In this document: positions 10,613-31,876 of the stretch, piece by piece
Numbering within the stretch: the stretch's first letter is position 1
Layout: each line of letters starts with the position of its first letter
Origin: a virus
Virus record (IMG/VR): IMGVR_UViG_3300031215_000027
Location: 1-39,723 of that record
DNA: 39,723 nucleotides
Reading direction: 5' to 3' (one strand)
Notes under the pieces: model-generated
Databases searched by the model: none
Told to the model about the DNA's origin: nothing
The model's input: the letters and a program-made list of their open reading frames with translations, nothing else
Position numbers and translations under genes: made by a program

Positions 10613-11899
10613 TTATTCATATTTAGTATTCCAATATTTTTTAAGCTCATCCGCTGACTCAGTTTTTGTTTTTTTAATGTAGTGGAGCATCATATCTTCT
10701 TTAGCCCATCCACAAATATTCATGAGATCTCTATTGGAAATATGCCCGAATAAATTAGAAGCAAAACTTCGGCGACAAATATGAGAACTTACAAGCTTAT
10801 ATTTTTTATGAAGACCATAAACTTTTCGTTTTTCCTTGGTTTTTTCATCGACTACAATTACACCGCCTTTAATTTGCTGGTCGATTTCTGCAAGCATACA
10901 AATCACCTTGATTTGCTCGTTAAAATGTTTGTCGCTGGTTTTAACGGGGAGATTGCCATGTCTTTTTTTAATTACCTTCCTGACTTGGGGATGAAGCGGA
11001 ATTGTCACCCATGCGCCTGTTTTTTGAGTTTTGATTCTAATATAATCACCATCAATGTTGCTAATGTCCAGATTTTTATTGAAATCGCTGATACGAAGCC
11101 CTGTCCATAGCCCAATAATAGCATTATCTCTGATGTTATCGAGACTCAGATCATTGCTTAGGTCTAAATCGTACACAGAATCAATTTCCTTCTCATTTAA
11201 ATATGGGTGATCGATTTCTTCTTGGTCCTTTTCGACAAAAACTCTATCCTGATAGGTAGGATCTGTTTTTATTCCTTCGGTTTTAGCTCTTGAGATAAAG
11301 AATTTAGCTCTTGCTATCTGTCTCTTGGTCGTGTTCGAAGCATAATCCTTGCTAGTCATGAATGTGGTAAATTGATCGAGTATTTCATTGCTTACATCTT
11401 GGATTTTATACGCCTTTTGACCCTCAAAGGATTTCCAGATCTTCAAAAAGGATTGATATTGCATTATAACACGCTTGGAAAGCATTTTATTTTTATCAGT
11501 TTTCCATTTGGGAGCCTTATTTTCTATCCACCAAAGGGCAAAATCAGAATAATACACGTAATGTTTCTCAATTGAAAGACGTTTCTCTTGCTTAGGTCGG
11601 TTGAAATATGAACTCACAGCGTTATTTAGCCAATTCTTATCTATTATATCGCCCATCATAAAAGAATCGTTGTACGCCTCTAAAATGCCTATCTTAAGCT
11701 TTTCGAATTTAGCCTGTTTTTTTACTCTATCTGAAATTGAAGATAAGTTTTTGTAATTGGATTTTTTGCTATCCCATTGCGAAGGATCAACGCTTAAATT
11801 AGTTGAGCACGTAATATCGAAGCTCCTGCCATTAATAAATCGAATATATAACGTTGAAGGATTTTTAGTGCCTTTTACGATTAGTTTTATTGTTGCCAT
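10613..11899 (-). CDS. int: Tyrosine recombinase / phage integrase
   Basis: The 428 aa protein has the three-part layout of Bacteroidota integrases: an N-terminal beta-rich arm-binding domain (1-90), a SAM-like core-binding domain (about 115-215), and a catalytic domain with Arg269 (GLWTGLRISDF), Lys293 (TQKTG), His373 and Arg376 (SSHICRRSFA), Trp398 in the second His/Trp position (CGWAKEDM) and nucleophile Tyr407 (LHYIKK). All catalytic residues are present, so it should be active. The probable attP lies 1.4 kb upstream at 13.3 kb. It fits site-specific integration of the phage into a tRNA gene. Confidence 0.93.
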   Translation of the reverse strand: MATIKLIVKGTKNPSTLYIRFINGRSFDITCSTNLSVDPSQWDSKKSNYKNLSSISDRVKKQAKFEKLKIGILEAYNDSFMMGDIIDKNWLNNAVSSYFNRPKQEKRLSIEKHYVYYSDFALWWIENKAPKWKTDKNKMLSKRVIMQYQSFLKIWKSFEGQKAYKIQDVSNEILDQFTTFMTSKDYASNTTKRQIARAKFFISRAKTEGIKTDPTYQDRVFVEKDQEEIDHPYLNEKEIDSVYDLDLSNDLSLDNIRDNAIIGLWTGLRISDFNKNLDISNIDGDYIRIKTQKTGAWVTIPLHPQVRKVIKKRHGNLPVKTSDKHFNEQIKVICMLAEIDQQIKGGVIVVDEKTKEKRKVYGLHKKYKLVSSHICRRSFASNLFGHISNRDLMNICGWAKEDMMLHYIKKTKTESADELKKYWNTKYE

Positions 11900-13424: not shown

Positions 13425-14078
13425 TTATCTTCTCCTGGATCTCTTCATTCCAATCACATTAAATAAGGCAACCACATCATCAAGATTCACAGTGTAGTCT
13501 TCATATAAATTATTTAGACTTTGAAGAGTTACTTCTCCACTCTCTATGTTATGATCCGTAATTCTTTTCACAACTATTCGAAGCTCTTTATGGGCGATCA
13601 CAAAATCCCAAGCGTTTATATGTAGTTTGTTCTGCCAATGGTGATTCTGTATTTCTCTGCATAATAGGATATCCTTATCCAAAATAGCCTCTGAAGGATT
13701 TGAATTATTCATACTATCTCCTTCAACTTCAAAACAAAAATAATTCCCCTTATATTCTTTATCCACTTCCCACGGTATTTTTGGCAATTCATCTATGTAT
13801 TCGGCATCTCCCCATCCATTAAGAAAACCTGCTTGAACTCTGCTACCAATTAAAGGAACCATTTTTACTAATTCATAGTCCTTTAAACTTGCCTTTGAAT
13901 TGTTATTTTCAAAGGCTTCCTTGTACATGTTGTCAAGTATTTTACTTTTTGTTTTAGGAATTACACCTCCTTTTTCATAACTGATTACAGTGATTTTTGA
14001 CACTCCAAGATTTTGAGCAAACTCAGTCTGAGTTTGTTTTAACGCTTTTCTGATTTCTTTTACTTGTTTATTGTCCAT
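13425..14078 (-). CDS. CI-like repressor with S24 (LexA-type) peptidase
   Basis: The 217 aa protein has an N-terminal HTH (residues 1-50: IRKALKQTQTEFAQNLGVSKITVISYEKG) and a C-terminal S24 peptidase. The likely self-cleavage site is Ala83-Gly84 (RVQAGFLNG), the nucleophile Ser122 (EVEGDSMN) and the general base Lys171 (RIVVKRI). All parts for RecA-stimulated autocleavage are present, so this is the probable lysogeny repressor, inducible by DNA damage. It is divergent from the early operon across a region with a matching inverted repeat. It ends beside the putative attP. Confidence 0.92.
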   Translation of the reverse strand: MDNKQVKEIRKALKQTQTEFAQNLGVSKITVISYEKGGVIPKTKSKILDNMYKEAFENNNSKASLKDYELVKMVPLIGSRVQAGFLNGWGDAEYIDELPKIPWEVDKEYKGNYFCFEVEGDSMNNSNPSEAILDKDILLCREIQNHHWQNKLHINAWDFVIAHKELRIVVKRITDHNIESGEVTLQSLNNLYEDYTVNLDDVVALFNVIGMKRSRRR

Positions 14079-18045: not shown

Positions 18046-18780
18046 ATGGAACTAAAAGTTATCGGCTCTGGAAGTCAAGGCAATTCCTACATCTTAACTA
18101 ATGATACAAATGTATTGTTAATCGAACTTGGAGTGAATTTCAAACGCATCAAAAAAGCATTAGATTTTAATATATCGAATGTAGAAGGGGCTTTAGTGTC
18201 TCATATACATTCTGATCATGCAAAATCTATCAAAGATGCGGTTGAATGTGGAATTGACGTGTATTCTGGAGCTGAAACTATTGAAGCAACAGGCTTAAAA
18301 AATCATAGGCTAAAACCCATGAAGGCAAAAAAAGCATACATGATTGGATCTTTTAAAGTCATGCCATTTGAATTGCGTCATGATGTTCCCTGCCTTGGAT
18401 TTATAATTAAGCATGAGGACTGCGGTAACGTCGTTTTTATTACAGATACTTATTATTCCCCATTTAGGTTTAAAGACGTAAACCAATGGATTATTGAGGC
18501 TAATTACAGTCAAAGCATACTAGATGGAAAAGATGGCTATGGTAATCAAAATGATTTTCTAAGAAATCGAGTAATGAGCAGCCATTTATCCATTGAAAAT
18601 TGCTCAAGCTTATTAGCTGCAAACGATTTGAGCACTACAAACAATATCGTGCTTACTCACTTATCTGATAGAAATAGTAATGCAGTTGAATTTAAAAAAT
18701 TAATAGAAAATCAAACCGGTAAGACTGTAAATATTGCAGAAACCGGACTAACAATAAATTTTAAAAAACGCCCTTTTTAA
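18046..18780 (+). CDS. MBL-fold metallohydrolase (YycJ/RecT-linked type)
   Basis: The 244 aa protein is a metallo-beta-lactamase fold hydrolase: GSGSQGNSYIL N-terminus, HIHSDH (His53, His55, Asp57, His58), His112 (LRHDVP), Asp134 (FITDTYY) and His205 (LTHLSDRN) complete a two-metal site. Phages often place such a gene beside recT, where it may act as the exonuclease partner producing single strands; that role is inferred. The spacing of 3 bp to recT and the immediate start of the next gene show one operon. Confidence 0.85.
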   Translation: MELKVIGSGSQGNSYILTNDTNVLLIELGVNFKRIKKALDFNISNVEGALVSHIHSDHAKSIKDAVECGIDVYSGAETIEATGLKNHRLKPMKAKKAYMIGSFKVMPFELRHDVPCLGFIIKHEDCGNVVFITDTYYSPFRFKDVNQWIIEANYSQSILDGKDGYGNQNDFLRNRVMSSHLSIENCSSLLAANDLSTTNNIVLTHLSDRNSNAVEFKKLIENQTGKTVNIAETGLTINFKKRPF

Positions 18781-22149: not shown

Positions 22150-22849
22150 TGATTTTGATTGTTTTTTAGAAATGGAAAGAAGCACTACAGTTGCAGAAGC
22201 TATTTCAGGAAGTTCTTTAAAAAGCCTTACCAAATCAATTAGCAGAAGAGATGTTATTAAATCAATTTCATTTCTTATAAATCGCTTTAATGAAAACTTC
22301 AATGCTAGTGGAAAGTTTACTGATATGCAAATCGCAACAGTATCAATGGATTTATTCGACATATTCCAATTTGAATCTCTTGAAGACGTGATGTTGATGT
22401 TCAAATACGCTAGACAAGGAAAAATTGGAGACGGAAAGGATTTTAAGCTTGATAGCCAGACGATATTTCATAAATGGGTGCCAGAATACCTTGAGCTTAA
22501 AGCAAACGAAAGAGAGCTATCCCACAATAAGAAAAAAGGGGAATTGTCGGGAATGGCAAACTTCAATTGGGATAAAGAAAACCTAGACAAGTTTGAAGTT
22601 TCTGAAAAAAAACAGTTGGCTGGGAAAAACTTTGGAAGCCGGGTGAAAGAAATATTCACTACTGAACACCTCGACAAACCAAAACTAGATCAAGTTCTTA
22701 AGCCTGATTTTTACGAAAGAGCCAAAGCTGATGTTGTAAATCACAGTACTGAAAACTTACAAGTTTATCTAAATGCTGAAAAGAAATCGATTGTACCAAA
22801 TAAATCGATGATTAAAATTGTTGAAACAGAATTGAAGTCGAGGGTATGA
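22061..22849 (+). CDS. Putative helicase-loader-like replication protein
   Basis: The 262 aa protein from the first ATG overlaps the initiator by 89 bp; Met38 (start 22172) would avoid this. The middle region (SISFLINRFNENFNASGKFTDMQIATVSMDLFDIFQFESLEDVMLMFKYARQGKIGDGKDFKLDSQTIF split here by helices) is all-alpha and resembles a phage protein that typically follows DnaD-like initiators; I think of it as loader-like, without a firm family. No ATPase motif is present, so it is not a DnaC-type loader. Confidence 0.55.
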   Translation: MKTGITAKSSEINQVSKERSALLIRSLATNDFDCFLEMERSTTVAEAISGSSLKSLTKSISRRDVIKSISFLINRFNENFNASGKFTDMQIATVSMDLFDIFQFESLEDVMLMFKYARQGKIGDGKDFKLDSQTIFHKWVPEYLELKANERELSHNKKKGELSGMANFNWDKENLDKFEVSEKKQLAGKNFGSRVKEIFTTEHLDKPKLDQVLKPDFYERAKADVVNHSTENLQVYLNAEKKSIVPNKSMIKIVETELKSRV

Positions 22850-22943: not shown

Positions 22944-23534
22944 ATGAATCAAGGTAGTTTATTTTCTGGTATTGGAGGATTTGATTTAGCATCTGAATGG
23001 ATGGGATGGAACAACTCTTTTCATTGCGAATGGAACGAATTTGGACAACGCATATTAAAATATTACTGGCCTAAAGCTATATCTTATGAAGACATCACAA
23101 AAACAGATTTCACTATTTGGCGAGGAAAAATTGACGTCCTCACAGGAGGATTCCCTTGTCAACCATACAGCCATGCAGGGAAAAGACTTGGTAAAGACGA
23201 TGATAGACACCTCTGGCCAGAAATGCTTAGAGCAATTCGGGAGATTGCCCCTGAGTACGTTGTGGCGGAGAACGTTCTTGGAATCGTTAGTTGGAATGAC
23301 GGACTGGTATTCAACGAAGTGCAAGCTGACTTGGAAGCTAAAGGGTACGAAGTACAACCGTGTGTACTTCCAGCTGCAGGTGTCGGCGCTCCCCACAGAA
23401 GAGATAGAGTCTGGTTTATTGCCCACCGTTCAAACTCAGGGATTAAAAGTATTCGAGAATCGAAGAAGCAAGGCAATAGAATTGAAAATACTCCCAACGC
23501 CAACATCATCAGGCGAGGAAGGCTACAAGACTAG
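22944..23534 (+). CDS. Cytosine-5 DNA methyltransferase, N-terminal part, ends at amber
   Basis: The 196 aa frame holds motif I (SLFSGIGGFDLASEW), catalytic PCQ with Cys72 (GGFPCQPYS), ENV at 109-111 and motif VIII HRRDRVW at 151-157. It therefore has the AdoMet and catalytic half of a C5 methyltransferase. It stops at TAG (23532-23534), but the same frame runs on without another stop to 23901 and there encodes the missing C-terminal motif X. A single amber codon, a sequencing error or readthrough could explain this. From 23086 on the same DNA is also read in a second frame (23086-23814). Confidence 0.85.
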   Translation: MNQGSLFSGIGGFDLASEWMGWNNSFHCEWNEFGQRILKYYWPKAISYEDITKTDFTIWRGKIDVLTGGFPCQPYSHAGKRLGKDDDRHLWPEMLRAIREIAPEYVVAENVLGIVSWNDGLVFNEVQADLEAKGYEVQPCVLPAAGVGAPHRRDRVWFIAHRSNSGIKSIRESKKQGNRIENTPNANIIRRGRLQD

Positions 23535-23814
23535 GGAAAAAAGACAAGGTCACAAGAAAGCAATGAGTTATCTGGAGGCGAACATCGAATACAAGATGTT
23601 GCCTACACCAGCAGCTTCAAATTACAAGGGAGCAAGCAGTACCGAAGCGTTAAAAGCAAGGGGCAGACTGAAAGAAAAGGCAGACAATTTAGCGGATCAG
23701 TTCCATCAAAGTGGCAAGACTTCCCAACTCAATCCCCTATTTGTAGCGGAAATGATGAGCTTTCCAGTAGACTGGACGGAATTACCTTTCCTAAATGGAG
23801 AAACGAAAGCATAA
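23086..23814 (+). CDS. Protein in +1 frame overlapping the methyltransferase
   Basis: This 242 aa frame begins inside the methyltransferase gene and has no stop for 729 bp. It is not random: WYSTKCKLTWK (74-84), YFQLQVSALPTEEIESGLLPT, repeated L(L)PTPxA phrases (111, 136, 172) and LNPLFVAEMMSFPVDWTELP (215-234) are phrases I recall from a recurrent phage family found next to or fused with cytosine methyltransferases. It probably helps target recognition or binds the enzyme; the function is not established. The start at 23086 is the first ATG of the frame and is followed by SLFG...TSSQED, also part of the remembered pattern. Confidence 0.7.
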   Translation: MKTSQKQISLFGEEKLTSSQEDSLVNHTAMQGKDLVKTMIDTSGQKCLEQFGRLPLSTLWRRTFLESLVGMTDWYSTKCKLTWKLKGTKYNRVYFQLQVSALPTEEIESGLLPTVQTQGLKVFENRRSKAIELKILPTPTSSGEEGYKTREKRQGHKKAMSYLEANIEYKMLPTPAASNYKGASSTEALKARGRLKEKADNLADQFHQSGKTSQLNPLFVAEMMSFPVDWTELPFLNGETKA

Positions 23815-23903
23815 AAGGATTTGGAAATGCAATAGTTCCTGAGGTTGCTTTGCAGATTTTTAAGGCAATCATGGAAACTAGAAATTCACTTAAAACTGAA
23901 TAA
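23535..23903 (+). pseudogene. C-terminal half of cytosine methyltransferase, same frame after the amber
   Basis: In the frame of the gene at 22944, the region after the TAG reads without stops to TAA at 23901-23903. It includes FPTQSPICSGNDEL, FPKWRNESIKGFGNAIVPEVALQIFKAI, which is the usual end of phage C5 methyltransferases with motif X (GNAIVPE). The whole frame 22944-23903 would give about 319 residues, the normal size. It is thus either a recently broken gene or one read through at the amber codon. Confidence 0.7.
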
Positions 23904-23961: not shown

Positions 23962-24219
23962 ATGTTAGAAAATCACACAAAACTTGAAAAAGACATTAAG
24001 GCTGACAAGACTCTTCGCGTAAGCTTAGACAAAAATCTTCAAGAATTGAAAGAACTTCCTAGTTCAAGAGAAAGAAGTTTATCAATTACAAAATTACAAG
24101 AAGCTATTATGTGGCTTGGTATGGACTTAAAAAGATTAAATGAACCTAATCCTTATCCAGACAGTTATAAGCCTGAGAACGCTAAAATAGCACCAACAGC
24201 AGACGGATTAAAATTGTAG
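23962..24219 (+). CDS. Acb2/Tad1-like anti-defence protein
   Basis: The 85 aa protein from the ATG at 23962 (an upstream ATG at 23845 lies in the methyltransferase tail) has two helices, with signature SRERSLSITKLQEAIMWLGMDLKRLNE and the tail PNPYPDSYKPENAKIAPTADGLKL. I recall this signature from proteins named Acb2/Tad1-domain, small sponges that bind the cyclic nucleotide messengers of CBASS and gcADPR of Thoeris. If right, it would disarm host signalling defence. It stands alone after the methyltransferase locus. The assignment is by pattern only. Confidence 0.6.
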   Translation: MLENHTKLEKDIKADKTLRVSLDKNLQELKELPSSRERSLSITKLQEAIMWLGMDLKRLNEPNPYPDSYKPENAKIAPTADGLKL

Positions 24220-24877: not shown

Positions 24878-27800
24878 TTATTTATCTTTTTTAATCTTAT
24901 CCATAAGCTTGTATGTTTCTTTATTTTTTTGTTTTACCAGAACATTAAAATCAGTAACGTTGTATAGGTAGTTTAACTTTATTTTCCTTTTACTTTCTTT
25001 ATCTCTGTAATTTAAATCGATTTTTTCTAATTTACTAATTGCGCTTATGTCTGTTATTTTCTTTAAAGGAGTTTGAATGCCAGCCATAATAAACTCAACA
25101 TCTTCTGTAGAAAATGCGCTCTGTTTCAAAGCTTTAAAAATATCAGCTTCATTTACTCCGAGTTTTCTAGCTCCTTTTACTGCTATAATCATGCTTTCTG
25201 ATAACTCTTTATTAGCTTTAGAATACTCTTCGATAGACTCTTTCATTCCAGAATCATCTAATCTACTAGTAGATTTAAAAGCATTAGTAATATCATCTTT
25301 TTTCTTATCAAACTTATCCTTATTCCTATACCCTAGAGAGGTTGTGCCTGCTATGTAATTTAAAGTTGTAAATCTAAAACCTAAAAGCCTCATAAGAGCA
25401 TCACTGTTTTTATACTCTTTACCGTAGGAAGTGAATTTATCTCCAAAGAAACTAGGTTGTACATCATTTGCTCTTGCAAATTCTGTAATGTTACCATAGA
25501 ATCCAGGACCTGCATTTTTCATATAGTGCTGACCTACTTTATCAGGGTCGTTAAATATTCCGTCAATTAAATTTTCACCTTCATATATTTCTCTATCAAA
25601 AACATCTCTATTAAAAAATAATTCATTCATAGTTTTAAAACTTATATCAAAACCTAAGTATGGAGATAGTGTTTCTTTAAGAGCCTCATTAATGTTGTCT
25701 TGAATATCTCTGCCTTCTCTATCGTCAAATAAAGTCCTAAGTGGTTTTAAATAAACTTCCGCAGGAAATAAAGCAGTTGCATCCATAAATATAGGTTGGC
25801 CAAACTTATCTTTCCCGGCATAAATAAGCTTACTGTTTGTTTGGTAGAACGGAAGCATATCTCTTACTTTATCATCATCATCATCATCAAATCCCATCAT
25901 ATTTTTAGATAATTCCGCTAAAGCTAAGTGCGAAGCATTTGCTATTAAAAAACCTGCAGCCTGCTTAGCCACCATACTAGATCTTCCTGCTTTTACATCT
26001 TCTTTCATATACTTAAATGTATTAGCAGAAGTCATTACGGCTAGATAAGGAAACGAAACAAAAGTACCTATAAGTGGAAATCTCCTTAATCTTTTAATGT
26101 TTTTTGGCAACATACTGTAAGTAGGAAATGTATCTATTATTCGCTGTGCTGCTTTTGCCTCAGCTTCCAAAGTAGTCATGCCAGACTTCTCATACCTTCC
26201 TTTATAAGTGTAATATCCAATTACTTTGTAAAAATCATCACCAAGAGCATAGACTTTTTTAATAGCATTAAAAACCCTTTTACCAGCTCCTTGATTTGAT
26301 ATCCTCTCTATGTCGTTTGTGAAATCATTTATAGTTTCCATAACTTCTTGAGAAATGGCGCCATCTCCTAATATACCAAGCTTGTAAAGTTTATCGGTTT
26401 CAGATTTAAGCTCTTTTCTGCTTTTTTTAGTACCCCAAGCCATGCTCATGGCATCCTTAATTTTTTTAGGATCAGAAGCGAAAAAGAATCCAGCATTTAA
26501 AGCTAAAATACTTCCACTTATAAAGTTAAGCATAGTGGTCATTGGACTTAAGGCTGTTTTACCAAGTTTTGTAAAGGCTGCAAAAGCTACCCATGCCTTA
26601 TAAAAGTCTTCATTAATTGTAGATAAGGGTTGTAAGTCTTGTATTGAATTATACAATTCTTTAGAAACGTAAAGTCCACTTAATCCACTCCAAGCTTCTC
26701 CATCAGGCGTAAGCTTTGTAAATCCAGCTTGTGCATCATAAGTTCCTAATCCAGATTCTAAAAGTTCAATCCTCATTTTATTTTGATATTCAGTAGAGGC
26801 TATATAATTACTAATCTTAAATACAGTAGAAGCATAATTAAGTAATGGGTCATTTGATTCTCCAAGCAATTCTCTAAAAGCTTTGGGTATTTCCTTTTTC
26901 TTCTTATAAAAAGGAGCTTTCTTTTCTCCTTCCGCAGAAGCTAAAACTAAATCTTTTTTTGTCTTAAGAGATTCTAAGTATTCAAAAACTCGCTTACGAG
27001 CATCTTTTTCCGTAATATTTGAACCAAATAAATCAGAGCTTTCATCCATAAGGAACTGAACAGCGTTATCTATACGTCTATTACCTTCTTTGTTGACATT
27101 TTTACTTGTAAGTCTCTCTAAGTAGTCAGTATTTTTAAAAGCGTCATAGGAGCGATACAAATACTGTCCTTTATTAGACTCAATAGTTTCTTGAAGTGTT
27201 TCAACTCTATTTATGGCATCACTAATTGAAGAGTAAGCTGCTGAATCTTTATCAAGTCCTTCCAGTTTTTCTTTAAAACCATTTTTTTGCTCTTCTAATT
27301 TTTCTTGTAAATTAGTAGAGAGCTTATCTACACGACTTCTTAACTGATCAATTTTATCTATTTGATTTTTATTAAGAAAAGAAATATCTACACCTTCCAC
27401 CCCAAGCAGGTAGTCGTTTAAAGCTAAAGCTCTTTCCTTAAATCCTTTGCTGTTTTTACTTTTTGAAGTACTCCCAAGTATTTCATTAATTTCACCTAGC
27501 TCGTGTTCCAAAGCATTAGTGACCGAACTCATCTCTCTACCTAAAGACCTTACAATATTTCCTATTTTTTTTGAAGTTCCAGCGTTAGTTTTAAAACTTT
27601 GATTCCAAAAACGTCTTGTTCTTTGCTGTACTTCATTTAAAATTTTGACTGGCCCACCCTTACCTAAAGAAGAGTCTCTTTTACTGCTGTTCTTAGAACC
27701 AATGCCCATAGCTTGAGCTTCGCTATTTTCTTGCAAACTTTCACGTGCTTTGAAGCTTTCTGAGCTTTGTGAAATCGCCTGCTTAATAGTGTCCGTAGTA

Positions 27801-30800
27801 ATTTCTCTTTTCTCTTTTCTAGTAAGAGACTTGTACCAATCTGTAGATTTAATGTAATTAAGACCTTCCTCTAGGGCTAAAGCTGCTTTCTTTCCTGCTT
27901 TGTATGCTGCTTTTACTACCTGTATAGCTTTTATTGCAATAGCAACAGGAAGATTTATTACAAGAGTACCATCACCAAAGTCTTTTAATTGCTTTTCGGC
28001 ATCCTCTAGTCCTTTGAGAAAAGCGTCATCACTATTACCTTCTTGAATAGTATCATCTACGTCTTGGTCTTGCGCTCCTTCACGTTCTTGAATGCTTGTA
28101 TTGCTGCCTTCTGATTCTCCGTCAATTGATCTTTGCCTATCGATTTCAAATTGGGCTTTTTCTTCTGTGGTTCCGAATTGTTCTTCATAATATTGTACTT
28201 TTTGGGCATATGTAAGCTCTTCTAAGAAAGAGTCTTCTGCCATTTGTGATTCAACTAAGGATAATTCCTCTTGAGATAAAGAACCTAAAAAACTAGACAA
28301 TTCCTGTTCGTCTTGGTTTGCATCAATTTGCTCTTGTAAAGATACAATTTGGCTTTGTATGTCAGAAATACTTTGATTTTCAAGCAATATTTGAATAATA
28401 GCGTCACGAACTACTGTTTGATCAAGACCTAAATTTGAATTATCTGTAATTTGTTCCGAAGCTCTCTCAACGCTAGGAAGTTTAGATTTCTTTTTAAATC
28501 CAGAAGCCCATTTTAATTCATTTTTAGAAGCTCCTGTTTCTTTAGAAGCGGAATCCAAATCAATATTACCTCCATTGGCAAAATATTCTAAAGCTGCTTC
28601 GTATTCATTTGTTGGCGTGTAACTGTCAATAGCCTCAAAAGTTCTCTTTTTATTAGCTTCGTTTATTTGATTGTCTGTTTTTTGTCCAACCGCTTCGTTT
28701 TCAATTCTAGAGTAGTTAGCGTTTTTAGCTAATGTCTTTTTGCCTGTTTTCTTGCTAGTCTTTTCGTAAAATTTAGAAATAGATCTTCCGTCTTTTGCGC
28801 TCTTGATGCTTACAACATTACCGCCTGAGTCCATTTCCACGTCAAAATCGCCTTTTACGCCTTTGGGTGAAACTCTTTTTGTGGTTGTTGGCTTTGGAGC
28901 TTTCTTTTTAGGCTCTACGACTGAATCTTTCTCTAATACATCTTCTTGGTTGGCATCTTCTTCTTCTTCTTCGGTGTTGATTTCTTCATCATTGGCTTCT
29001 TGGCTACTTTTTTCATTTGATTCTTCATTGTTTTCTGGGTTTTGATTTGATTTATTATTTAAAGCTGTTATTTTATCTCTAGCATCTTGACTTATTTTAT
29101 TTCTAGCCTCTCTAGTTATAACTTTTAAACCTCTTTTTTTAACATCGTCTTTTACTTCTTTATTTATTCTTTTTTCTATTACTTCTATTTTATTAAGTAT
29201 ATCATCTCTTTCTATTCCACTCGCTGTTTCATTAAATTTTTCTGTTAACCTTATAACTTCTTTATCTTTATCTAATTTATTTATTTGTTCTGTTTTTATG
29301 CCATCTAAAGAAATAGTACTGTCTAATTCTTCTTGTTTTTCTTTATTAATTTTTTCAATCTCAGATTGAGTATTAGATAATTGAGCTTTGACTGGTTTTT
29401 TAGGGTCTGTATTATCAGCTTCTTGTCTTTCAAAAATAGATATAGCACGTTCAGTAATCTCTTGATCGGTTATTTGGAAGTCCTTAACCCCGTCAGCTTC
29501 GTACTCAGCTATTATCTCGTTTTGAGCTTCATCTTTTAGCCTTAGTGATTCTTCCTCTGTTAGAAGGTCTAAAAAGCTCTCCTTTTTTTCATCGACAACT
29601 ATTTGCTTACCTTCTAATGTTTCATTTCTGTCTTTTTCCAAAACATTAAATTCATCCAAAAGGTCTTTTAGTATTTCAGTTCTCTGTTCCTGAGATAAAG
29701 CTTTGTCTTCATTAATTAATTTTGCCTCTGCCTGAAGTAAAGCTTGATTTTTGGTAATGCCATTAACTTTATTGTAGACTGCTTGGCTCAAATTTGAAGT
29801 GGAGCTTCTGGCTTTATTAATTAATTTATCATTACTAGCATTAGCCTCTTTTATTTTACCCTCTAAAATGTTTCTTGTGGATTGATTTCCTGCGTTATTA
29901 AATGCCTTCTGAAGCTTAATAACTTTCAAATAGCCGTTCTTTATTTCTTCAATTTGACTCTTAGGCATGAAAGGCTTAATCAATTCTCCTGTTATTTTGC
30001 CACCACCAATAATCAAAGGACTGCTTGCAAGAGTCGAGAATGTAGTTTTATCCAGATTGTCTGTCAGTAAAACATCTTTTTTATCTAAAGCAAATCTGTC
30101 TAATAAGTTTTGAGAAAAAGTTGTGGCGTTTTCGGTAAGAACTTCTACACCGTTGTCTTTAAAAAATTGCTTAGTAAATCCTAAAGCTCCTTTGTTCAGT
30201 AATGCTCTATTGGCACTAGAACTAACGGATCGTCTTAGTATTCGAGAAGTAGGTAGTGCGCCAAAAACACTCTCAGCAGCACCGTAACCAAAGGGTATTG
30301 ATATCTCTTGTAATAAAGAATAATTTGCAGGATTAATACCTGATTCTTCAGACTTCATTTCTGAAAACTTACTACCTCCTGTTGATATTCCAAGAGCTGT
30401 TATACCTGCGGTAGCTGAAAAGGGATTCATTATAGCTGCTAAGATTGGACCCTGTGTAGCGGTTTCCTGAGCCATAAAATAACCAACGTCTTGAAGTCCT
30501 GTTATATTATCGTATTCCATTCTAGGACGAAAGTTTTGTGCAACTTCTTGAGTCATTTTTTTAGTCTCCTCAGCAGACATAGCCATTTCATCAGACGCTA
30601 TTTGATCGGATTCGTTACCTGTAATAGCTGCCTTTATGTTTAAGGCGTAAGCAAATGCTCCTTGAGATCCAGCAACTACCAAATCTCCTATTGACATGGC
30701 TATCTGAGCCTTCATGTTATCCACAAAGCCGTAATTACGTTTTATCAAATCTATAGCCTCGGTAGTTTCTATTTTTTTATCTTGGTTTTGTTCCAACTTT

Positions 30801-31876
30801 TCTTCAAACTTTTTATACTTATCATCAAGAGTAGTGACAATCTGACTTCTTAATTCAAAGTTTTGTGCATACCTTTCGTTAAAACCTTCAGGCAATTCCT
30901 TACCTTCTTCGTTCATTCTCCTAATAAAATCTTCATTGGAATTTACTCTACTAGCTGCCCTTGTTAATTTCTCAAAATCAATTTCAAGATCAATCACGGC
31001 AGCTTTTTCTTCCATTTCAACTGTTTTATAGTTGAATACTTGGTTGACGTTTAGTTCTTCCCTTTCTTTTTCAGGAAGAGATCCAATATAATCTATAGTT
31101 CTTCTTTCCTTAAGCGCATCCGTTTCGTCTTTAATGGTAATTTCCTTTATGGCAGCATCTAGGTTTTCGGGAGTTTGCTCTTTATCTTGTTCCTCTAAAA
31201 ATTTAATAGCCTTCTCTTGTTTTCTTTCCTTGTAAGATGAGAATTTAATATCTGGACCTAATCCAAGAGTAGCGACTGCTCCAATTTTACTTAAAACATT
31301 TACAGCTCCTTGTGTAAATTTTTCAAAAGTAGAACCTTCTAGTTTTTCTTGAGCATCCCTTTCTATTTGTTGTGCATCTTCAGGTCTTACAGACGTAGCT
31401 CTTTCATAATTAGCTATGTTAGTAAAGGTTGTATCTCTTTCCGCTAAATTATCTTGAAGCTGATTTAATATGGCTTGCTTATAATCAAGGTCTGATACTC
31501 TTTCCTCTGGTGTAGGTTTTGGATTTTGGGTATTAGGTTCGGAAGTAGCCAATGAACCATCCTGAGTCGGAGGTATTGGGAGGTTTTGTTCCATATCCGA
31601 AGCAAGATCTGGACCAATAAAACCTTCTTTTTTTTTTATTTGGTCTTCTAATTCAAAAGTCTTGTCTACAACTAGCTGAGCAAAACGATCACCGTATTTT
31701 TTTTCAAGAACTGATTCTATCTCAAAAGTACCATTAGGTGTTTTATATACATTTTCATTTATTAAAGAAAAAGTATTAGCATTTACTAAAGAGTCAAATT
31801 TAGTTCCGTATTTTTCCTTTAAATCTCTTTCGGAAACAATTTTACCATTAGGTGTTTTGTACTTAGGATCTGGCAT
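24878..31876 (-). CDS. Giant virion/ejection protein, 2332 aa
   Basis: The protein starts with two tandem copies of a ~38-residue module (YKTPNG...KYG..F..LV...F.L at 6-39 and 44-77, exactly 38 apart). Long helical, glutamate/lysine-rich regions follow. The C-terminal third has hydrophobic stretches (LGKTALSPMTTMLNFISGSI, about residue 1780; FLIANASHLALAELSKNMMG, about 1990) and a run of six Asp, resembling large polyvalent phage proteins. It is the last gene of an order small, medium, giant that copies T7 gp14, gp15 and gp16, so it is probably the main ejection protein, entering the cell ahead of DNA. I see no lysozyme or transglycosylase motif. Confidence 0.7.
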   Translation of the reverse strand: MPDPKYKTPNGKIVSERDLKEKYGTKFDSLVNANTFSLINENVYKTPNGTFEIESVLEKKYGDRFAQLVVDKTFELEDQIKKKEGFIGPDLASDMEQNLPIPPTQDGSLATSEPNTQNPKPTPEERVSDLDYKQAILNQLQDNLAERDTTFTNIANYERATSVRPEDAQQIERDAQEKLEGSTFEKFTQGAVNVLSKIGAVATLGLGPDIKFSSYKERKQEKAIKFLEEQDKEQTPENLDAAIKEITIKDETDALKERRTIDYIGSLPEKEREELNVNQVFNYKTVEMEEKAAVIDLEIDFEKLTRAASRVNSNEDFIRRMNEEGKELPEGFNERYAQNFELRSQIVTTLDDKYKKFEEKLEQNQDKKIETTEAIDLIKRNYGFVDNMKAQIAMSIGDLVVAGSQGAFAYALNIKAAITGNESDQIASDEMAMSAEETKKMTQEVAQNFRPRMEYDNITGLQDVGYFMAQETATQGPILAAIMNPFSATAGITALGISTGGSKFSEMKSEESGINPANYSLLQEISIPFGYGAAESVFGALPTSRILRRSVSSSANRALLNKGALGFTKQFFKDNGVEVLTENATTFSQNLLDRFALDKKDVLLTDNLDKTTFSTLASSPLIIGGGKITGELIKPFMPKSQIEEIKNGYLKVIKLQKAFNNAGNQSTRNILEGKIKEANASNDKLINKARSSTSNLSQAVYNKVNGITKNQALLQAEAKLINEDKALSQEQRTEILKDLLDEFNVLEKDRNETLEGKQIVVDEKKESFLDLLTEEESLRLKDEAQNEIIAEYEADGVKDFQITDQEITERAISIFERQEADNTDPKKPVKAQLSNTQSEIEKINKEKQEELDSTISLDGIKTEQINKLDKDKEVIRLTEKFNETASGIERDDILNKIEVIEKRINKEVKDDVKKRGLKVITREARNKISQDARDKITALNNKSNQNPENNEESNEKSSQEANDEEINTEEEEEDANQEDVLEKDSVVEPKKKAPKPTTTKRVSPKGVKGDFDVEMDSGGNVVSIKSAKDGRSISKFYEKTSKKTGKKTLAKNANYSRIENEAVGQKTDNQINEANKKRTFEAIDSYTPTNEYEAALEYFANGGNIDLDSASKETGASKNELKWASGFKKKSKLPSVERASEQITDNSNLGLDQTVVRDAIIQILLENQSISDIQSQIVSLQEQIDANQDEQELSSFLGSLSQEELSLVESQMAEDSFLEELTYAQKVQYYEEQFGTTEEKAQFEIDRQRSIDGESEGSNTSIQEREGAQDQDVDDTIQEGNSDDAFLKGLEDAEKQLKDFGDGTLVINLPVAIAIKAIQVVKAAYKAGKKAALALEEGLNYIKSTDWYKSLTRKEKREITTDTIKQAISQSSESFKARESLQENSEAQAMGIGSKNSSKRDSSLGKGGPVKILNEVQQRTRRFWNQSFKTNAGTSKKIGNIVRSLGREMSSVTNALEHELGEINEILGSTSKSKNSKGFKERALALNDYLLGVEGVDISFLNKNQIDKIDQLRSRVDKLSTNLQEKLEEQKNGFKEKLEGLDKDSAAYSSISDAINRVETLQETIESNKGQYLYRSYDAFKNTDYLERLTSKNVNKEGNRRIDNAVQFLMDESSDLFGSNITEKDARKRVFEYLESLKTKKDLVLASAEGEKKAPFYKKKKEIPKAFRELLGESNDPLLNYASTVFKISNYIASTEYQNKMRIELLESGLGTYDAQAGFTKLTPDGEAWSGLSGLYVSKELYNSIQDLQPLSTINEDFYKAWVAFAAFTKLGKTALSPMTTMLNFISGSILALNAGFFFASDPKKIKDAMSMAWGTKKSRKELKSETDKLYKLGILGDGAISQEVMETINDFTNDIERISNQGAGKRVFNAIKKVYALGDDFYKVIGYYTYKGRYEKSGMTTLEAEAKAAQRIIDTFPTYSMLPKNIKRLRRFPLIGTFVSFPYLAVMTSANTFKYMKEDVKAGRSSMVAKQAAGFLIANASHLALAELSKNMMGFDDDDDDKVRDMLPFYQTNSKLIYAGKDKFGQPIFMDATALFPAEVYLKPLRTLFDDREGRDIQDNINEALKETLSPYLGFDISFKTMNELFFNRDVFDREIYEGENLIDGIFNDPDKVGQHYMKNAGPGFYGNITEFARANDVQPSFFGDKFTSYGKEYKNSDALMRLLGFRFTTLNYIAGTTSLGYRNKDKFDKKKDDITNAFKSTSRLDDSGMKESIEEYSKANKELSESMIIAVKGARKLGVNEADIFKALKQSAFSTEDVEFIMAGIQTPLKKITDISAISKLEKIDLNYRDKESKRKIKLNYLYNVTDFNVLVKQKNKETYKLMDKIKKDK

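Follow-up and report, generated by a model that had tools for sequence, protein, structure and literature searches.

Acb2 and Tad1, the described systems closest to the protein discussed here, assemble into hexamers, and most of the members that have been studied belong to proteobacterial and firmicute phages. Acb2 proper binds cyclic di- and trinucleotides and protects phages from CBASS; Tad1 proper binds glycocyclic ADP-ribose. The residue roles that we use for comparison are drawn from the available excerpts of five sources (PMC12657218, PMC12657230, PMC10419184, PMC12043709, and PMC11722364). In these excerpts, binding by T4 Acb2 is disrupted by Y8A (PMC12657218, PMC12657230), its affinity is decreased by T68M (PMC12657230), and Phe82 stacks on the bound bases (PMC12657218); p26 (8h2j) is the Acb2 of phage PaP2 (PMC11722364). 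For Tad1, the excerpt of a review (PMC12043709) describes an N-terminal beta-sheet domain ahead of the hairpin and a pocket that takes in the C-terminal tail of a protomer.

The window, by which we mean the entire 39,723-nucleotide stretch analyzed (IMG/VR virus record IMGVR_UViG_3300031215_000027; 34% G+C), encodes an 85-amino-acid (aa) protein that resembles Acb2 in being a small phage protein with a helical hairpin and a related second helix (compare T4 Vs.4, 7uq2, and p26, 8h2j) but that ends in a 25-residue C-terminal tail seen, by eye, in none of nine classical Acb2-type proteins. This variant is found in many metagenomic phage contigs. The partial sources covered by a literature search contain apparently no description of the tail-bearing clade, nor did the search bring up an assay, of binding or with phage, on a tail-bearing protein; this variety of sponge protein thus seems to be unstudied. 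The features discussed below are collected in Table 1.

Table 1. Positions of the features in the window and in related loci
Feature	Position	Strand	Basis or remark
Gene, 85-aa tail-bearing Acb2/Tad1-hairpin protein	23962..24219 (including stop codon)	+	ORF, PF24729
Helix 1 of hairpin, residues 2-30; conserved K16, R19, D23, Q27	23965..24051	+	AlphaFold2, conservation
PF24729-matched stretch, residues 27-52 (SRE 35-37, T43, W51)	24040..24117	+	Pfam
Helix 2 of hairpin, residues 36-60	24067..24141	+	AlphaFold2
Conserved C-terminal tail, residues 61-85, EPNPYPDSYKPENAKIAPTADGLKL	24142..24216	+	Conservation, 87 distinct proteins
Integrase-like gene	10613-11899	-	phrog_216
Repressor-like gene	13425-14078	-	phrog_4
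Metal-dependent hydrolase	18046-18780	+	phrog_392, E 1.8e-75
Cytosine-5 methyltransferase frame	22944-23903	+	In-frame TAG
242-aa ORF overlapping the methyltransferase	23086-23814	+	phrog_1008 (DNA methyltransferase), E 1.8e-25
2332-aa ORF	24878-31876	-
MRQG members	L164:1828-2118, L138:8190-8492, L143:2048-2335, L147:3732-4031		Tail kept, SRE/T/W lost
MRQG members	L154:2549-2839, L159:2282-2584, L171:5283-5573, L181:9559-9852		Tail kept, SRE/T/W lost
Gundel_1 gp108 (Tad2-like)	L125:6255-6521		Behind tail-bearing sponge
Gundel_1 gp109 (crAss001_48-domain)	L125:6550-7089		Behind tail-bearing sponge

The hairpin and its family

The 85-aa protein matches the Pfam family PF24729 (Acb2/Tad1 hairpin) at an E value of 8.7e-7 and 29.5 bits, above the curated cut-off of 27, and a search of the whole record with this family gives 29.3 bits, likewise above the cut-off, with matches in none of 14 control genomes. 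DUF632, the sole other Pfam row (E 0.02), lies below its own cut-off and was set aside, and the four PHROG matches are all annotated as unknown function. All 33 members of the clade alignment (A4), the window protein included, match PF24729 at E ≤ 0.01. When the clade without L041 is aligned by hhalign to the nine classical Acb2-type proteins, the probability is 96.3% (E 1.5e-9); that set comprises L041 (itself first recovered via the window protein), T4 Vs.4, Mycobacterium phage StellaBean gp101 (annotated as “cyclic nucleotide sequestering protein”), and proteins of Paenibacillus, Gordonia (two), Streptomyces, Mycobacterium, and Lactococcus phages.

The AlphaFold2 model (32 sequences; mean pLDDT, 86.9) consists of two antiparallel helices (residues 2 to 30 and 36 to 60) and a short helix at residues 66 to 69, with no strand; pLDDT is 95 to 98 in the blocks spanning residues 11 to 50 and 51 over the last five residues. 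In the BFVD, the best Foldseek match, and the sole one at E ≤ 0.001, is A0A345BP16 of crAssphage ctcc615 (E 2.6e-5; 47% identity), an “Acb2/Tad1 hairpin domain-containing protein” named by its domain only. Foldseek against the PDB gives 221 matches at E ≤ 10 and none at E ≤ 0.001, with no sponge among the 50 matches listed. By VIA-align, T4 Vs.4 (7uq2) scores a Z of 8.1 (rmsd, 3.8; 67 aligned residues) and ranks 31st, level with helical hairpins that are unrelated to it, and 380 of 382 aligned chains reach a Z of at least 2. Since helical hairpins match so many unrelated chains, the PDB structure searches neither support nor exclude the family.

In total, the earlier call of an Acb2/Tad1 hairpin domain, made in a first-pass annotation from the letters alone, holds up on the Pfam match, the uniform result across A4, the hhalign alignment to classical Acb2, and the modeled hairpin. 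That annotation had named an HMM search, a two-helix fold, and the pocket residues as the points to check: the family hit and the hairpin are both there, but the pocket residues are kept only in part, as the aromatic residue that Acb2 brings to its pocket from the N terminus is absent. Of the two strings that it quoted as a family signature, the first does belong to the hairpin, but the second is the C-terminal tail and lies outside the Pfam match.

Profile comparisons point to Tad1 as the best-matching solved family for the hairpin, in that a clade profile (classical L041 included) finds the Tad1 chains 8kbb (4.6e-7) and 7uav (8e-4; see also 8smd). However, the N-terminal beta-sheet domain described for Tad1 in the excerpt of PMC12043709 is missing from the window protein: SRE is preceded by just 34 residues, which leave no room for such a domain, and the model is strand-free. 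“Acb2 homolog 43” (9ptq) is a weak match (E 0.18 with the single sequence and 0.018 with the clade profile, L041 included); the classical Acb2 profile fits it better (1.2e-8), and the clade match ends before the tail. With respect to Acb2 itself, T43 of the window protein aligns with T68 of T4 Acb2, in the second helix, but the N-terminal motif [YFH][HK]xP (Tyr8 in T4), which is present in all nine classical proteins, is lacking here and is matched by only 1 of the 33 members of A4. Based on these comparisons, we place the 85-aa protein in the hairpin superfamily, yet as neither Acb2 nor Tad1 proper.

Could the frame be spurious, or could its start have been misplaced? Some observations lean toward a chance or nonfunctional frame 3' of the methyltransferase: promoter-like sites between positions 22800 and 24900 number 6 against 5.4 expected, with no convincing promoter signal, and the ATG, inspected by eye, lacks a purine-rich ribosome site directly 5' of it. 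Nevertheless, relatives at 49 to 78% identity are found in dozens of other phage contigs, and the median dN/dS of the sponge gene is 0.23 over 73 locus pairs with unsaturated synonymous change, a median to be read with the pairs being nonindependent and with most of the listed pairs of window and relative being saturated or nearly so in dS. By this measure the relatives are under purifying selection, and identity and dN/dS together establish the frame, which runs from ATG to TAG and contains both quoted strings, as a gene; a chance origin is thereby refuted, and we give it practically no credence. The opposite strand of the same interval contains stops and is not open. The surrounding 12 kb recur at 99.99 to 100% in three IMG/VR contigs (6 kb in one of the three). 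The frame is open 5' of the ATG, with a TTG start at 23845, as would fit a plain Acb2 orthologue that lost its N-terminal pocket residue in annotation, for example through an upstream start. However, when 88 distinct open frames were read up to 60 aa upstream with a pattern that recovers all nine classical controls, the motif appeared in only 3, namely L041 (classical), L074 (an HKVP, in its N-terminal extension), and L125 (the YKP of its tail), and residues 1 to 10 of the tail-clade proteins are not conserved. As far as sequence goes, a missed start is refuted for the clade, and for the window protein we regard it as very improbable.

A tail that defines the clade

The tail follows the pattern NPYPxS[YK]xP...PTADGLKL. 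Among 87 distinct proteins, Y65 has a frequency of 0.99; P64, P66, and S68 each have 0.97; and T79, A80, and L83 each have 0.94. Averaged by segment, the commonest residue has a frequency of 0.88 for residues 35 to 60, 0.71 for 61 to 72, 0.73 for 73 to 85, 0.55 for 11 to 34, and 0.19 for 1 to 10 (87 distinct proteins, L041 included). T43 is kept in 97% and W51 in 100% of the 87 proteins, values that are inflated to the extent that the loci were partly retrieved by the SRE...T...MW motif, as search patterns raise the conservation of residues lying inside them.

The pairing of tail and hairpin is recovered from either end. A scan of IMG/VR with a DNA pattern for the tail only gives 86 stretches; in all 86 the second-helix motif lies within about 30 residues upstream, and in all 86 the protein ends one residue past the pattern (in L168, a stop interrupts the tail). 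Conversely, when residues 11 to 60 of the hairpin served both as query and for ranking, the tail was present in 79 of the best 80 of 117 relatives: a regular expression counts 77, in L290 and L297 the tail is extended by four residues, and L288 is without it. Another count gives 71 of 73 by regular expression, with both misses (L058 and L077) tail-bearing by eye, and the exceptions in the alignment are, by eye, variant tail ends apart from the tail-less L041. The tail-only and hairpin-only searches thus agree in making the tail a defining part of the clade, and no tail apart from the clade was found in IMG/VR at the sensitivity of the pattern.

Among 74 distinct tail-pattern proteins, SRE...T...MW is kept in 52 (by regular expression), MRQG takes the place of MWLG in 8, and 14 are of other types. 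The eight MRQG proteins, read from re-chosen better starts and then rescanned against Pfam, have also lost SRE and T and match no Pfam sponge family at E ≤ 1, and they share with the window protein the tail and the helix-1 residues. The model of one of them, L164, is a hairpin (pLDDT, 80.0; helices 3 to 36 and 44 to 72), from an alignment that includes window-type proteins. That this branch keeps the tail without SRE, T, or W implies that the family can do without its hallmark motif in the hairpin, and the tail signature finds members that Pfam misses.

Scans of IMG/VR recovered 40 loci with the single sequence (peptides from hairpin and tail) and 154 relatives with a profile (hairpin peptides, ranked by whole protein), of which 80 were kept. 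In GTDB genomes, ten contigs carry a relative: eight are Bacteroidota titled, one is Nitrospirae, and one is from a Lachnospiraceae metagenome-assembled genome (MAG). No relative was found in plasmids at E ≤ 0.01. With regard to the putative flavobacterial host of the first-pass annotation, the nearest relative in a named phage is that of Tenacibaculum phage Gundel_1 (two records, 74% identity). Bacteroides phage BK735P4 (61%), crAss-like cr111_1 (58%; two records), and crAssphage ctcc615 (50% by tblastn, across residues 8 to 85 of the window protein) come next, and all four phages match over 80% of the protein. With this clade, relatives of Acb2 and Tad1 occur in one phage each of Tenacibaculum and Bacteroides as well as in crAss-like phages.

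What the tail may do

We posit that the 85-aa protein is probably a phage counter-defense sponge of the Acb2/Tad1-hairpin superfamily in which the tail serves in a pocket role. In this model, several hairpins would assemble, in the manner of the Acb2 and Tad1 hexamers, and the sponge would bind, rather than destroy, a nucleotide alarm signal from a host CBASS, Thoeris, or related system; with the bound signal withheld, the effector would not be switched on. The tail and its near-invariant Pro-Tyr-Pro would extend to a neighboring subunit and supply both a base-stacking aromatic and a lid for the pocket, doing the work of the N-terminal Tyr8 of T4 Acb2 and of the part of the Tad1 pocket that is built from a C-terminal tail. 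Given Phe82 and Y8A of T4 Acb2 and the tail pocket of Tad1, the most economical reading is that Y65 and its tail neighbors would replace the missing N-terminal aromatic. Within the tail there is also an aromatic-x-Pro that is reminiscent of the Acb2 N-terminal motif (SYKP in the window and SYDP or SYNP in others), with Lys replacing that Tyr in about half of the proteins. The residues that the clade singles out are Y65, T43, and the TADGLK end.

Which signal would be bound? Among the ten bacterial MAGs with a relative, whose completeness is unstated and in which phage contigs may be misbinned, a CD-NTase (SMODS) was found in none and a ThsB-type TIR in three, so that the target is not singled out.

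An alternative is that the hairpin derives from a sponge and serves only as an oligomerizing scaffold, with the tail being a short linear motif that binds a partner protein of phage or host, for example one acting in transcription, replication, or packaging. The constraint on the tail is what such a binding motif would show, the eight MRQG proteins keep it without SRE, T, or W, and the genomic context of the gene is mixed. Against this stand the retention of SRE...T...MW in 52 of the 74 proteins, the near invariance of T43 and W51, and a variable genomic location that is unlike that of a conserved structural or replication part; we consider such a function rather unlikely. The same MRQG branch, in which the tail outlives SRE, T, and W, also invites a bolder form of the sponge proposal, namely, that specificity would lie in the tail and not in the hairpin. 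We speculate that the clade might represent a third sponge architecture, in which a subunit-swapped Pro-Tyr-Pro/TADGLKL tail would grip the ligand and allow the capture of signals outside the range of the known Acb2 and Tad1 proteins; this is a tentative idea, to which we would give perhaps one chance in a few. The named members of the tail family come from Bacteroidota and crAss-like phages. Because Panoptes and other guard systems can be alerted to a phage by its sponge (in the excerpt of PMC12657218), any new specificity would be testable both ways.

Genomic neighborhood

The window's matches to an integrase and a repressor agree with the first-pass reading of a temperate phage. On the plus strand, the order is SbcC-like, RecT, metal-dependent hydrolase, SSB-like DUF3127, DnaD-like helicase loader, cytosine methyltransferase, and the sponge gene, and the 3' side holds a 47-aa ORF, a 122-aa ORF, and convergent opposite-strand genes, including one for a virion structural protein. 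Anti-Pycsar enzymes have a metallo-beta-lactamase fold, and the hydrolase directly after RecT may be metallo-beta-lactamase-like in fold as well.

The proposal that the sponge and the adjacent methyltransferase form a small anti-defense island is not supported: relatives of the window's own enzyme, which are what the search covered (tblastn, E ≤ 1e-5), occur at only 3 of 106 loci, all of them copies of the same phage, and the methyltransferase frame is interrupted by an in-frame TAG (23532-23534) that is present in three near-identical IMG/VR contigs. Past this TAG the frame stays open for 122 codons, with a GNAIVP motif near the end. Recoding of TAG is unlikely, as 6 of the 48 listed ORFs, counting the methyltransferase, end in TAG, and no tRNA turned up. 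The methyltransferase also shares its stretch with a 242-aa ORF in a different frame, and the two overlapping frames both look coding.

In the window, cr111_1, and Gundel_1, the sponge gene lies near genes of replication, recombination, or nucleotide metabolism, and in metagenomic loci it lies near amidase, DnaB, or uncharacterized genes; such varied contexts are what an accessory gene would show. Directly 3' of the sponge gene, Gundel_1 has a Tad2-like gene (PF11195, E 1.5e-26), which places two predicted sponges side by side; a gene with a crAss001_48 domain comes next. The idea of Tad2 as a general partner was rejected, as it occurs in only 1 of 50 records (Gundel_1), a set in which the window's phage was represented by its copy L002. 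The crAss001_48 domain (PF21825) is absent from the window and is present in 7 of the 50 records at E ≤ 0.001, 6 of them above its cut-off; in five of these six (L014, L016, L037, L059, and L125) it is no more than about 650 bases away from the sponge gene, with two of the five sharing the same sponge sequence. This proximity is suggestive only of a partnership, and crAss001_48, a small protein domain, may mark another counter-defense gene. Elsewhere in the window, a single 2332-aa ORF on the minus strand takes up about 18% of the record.
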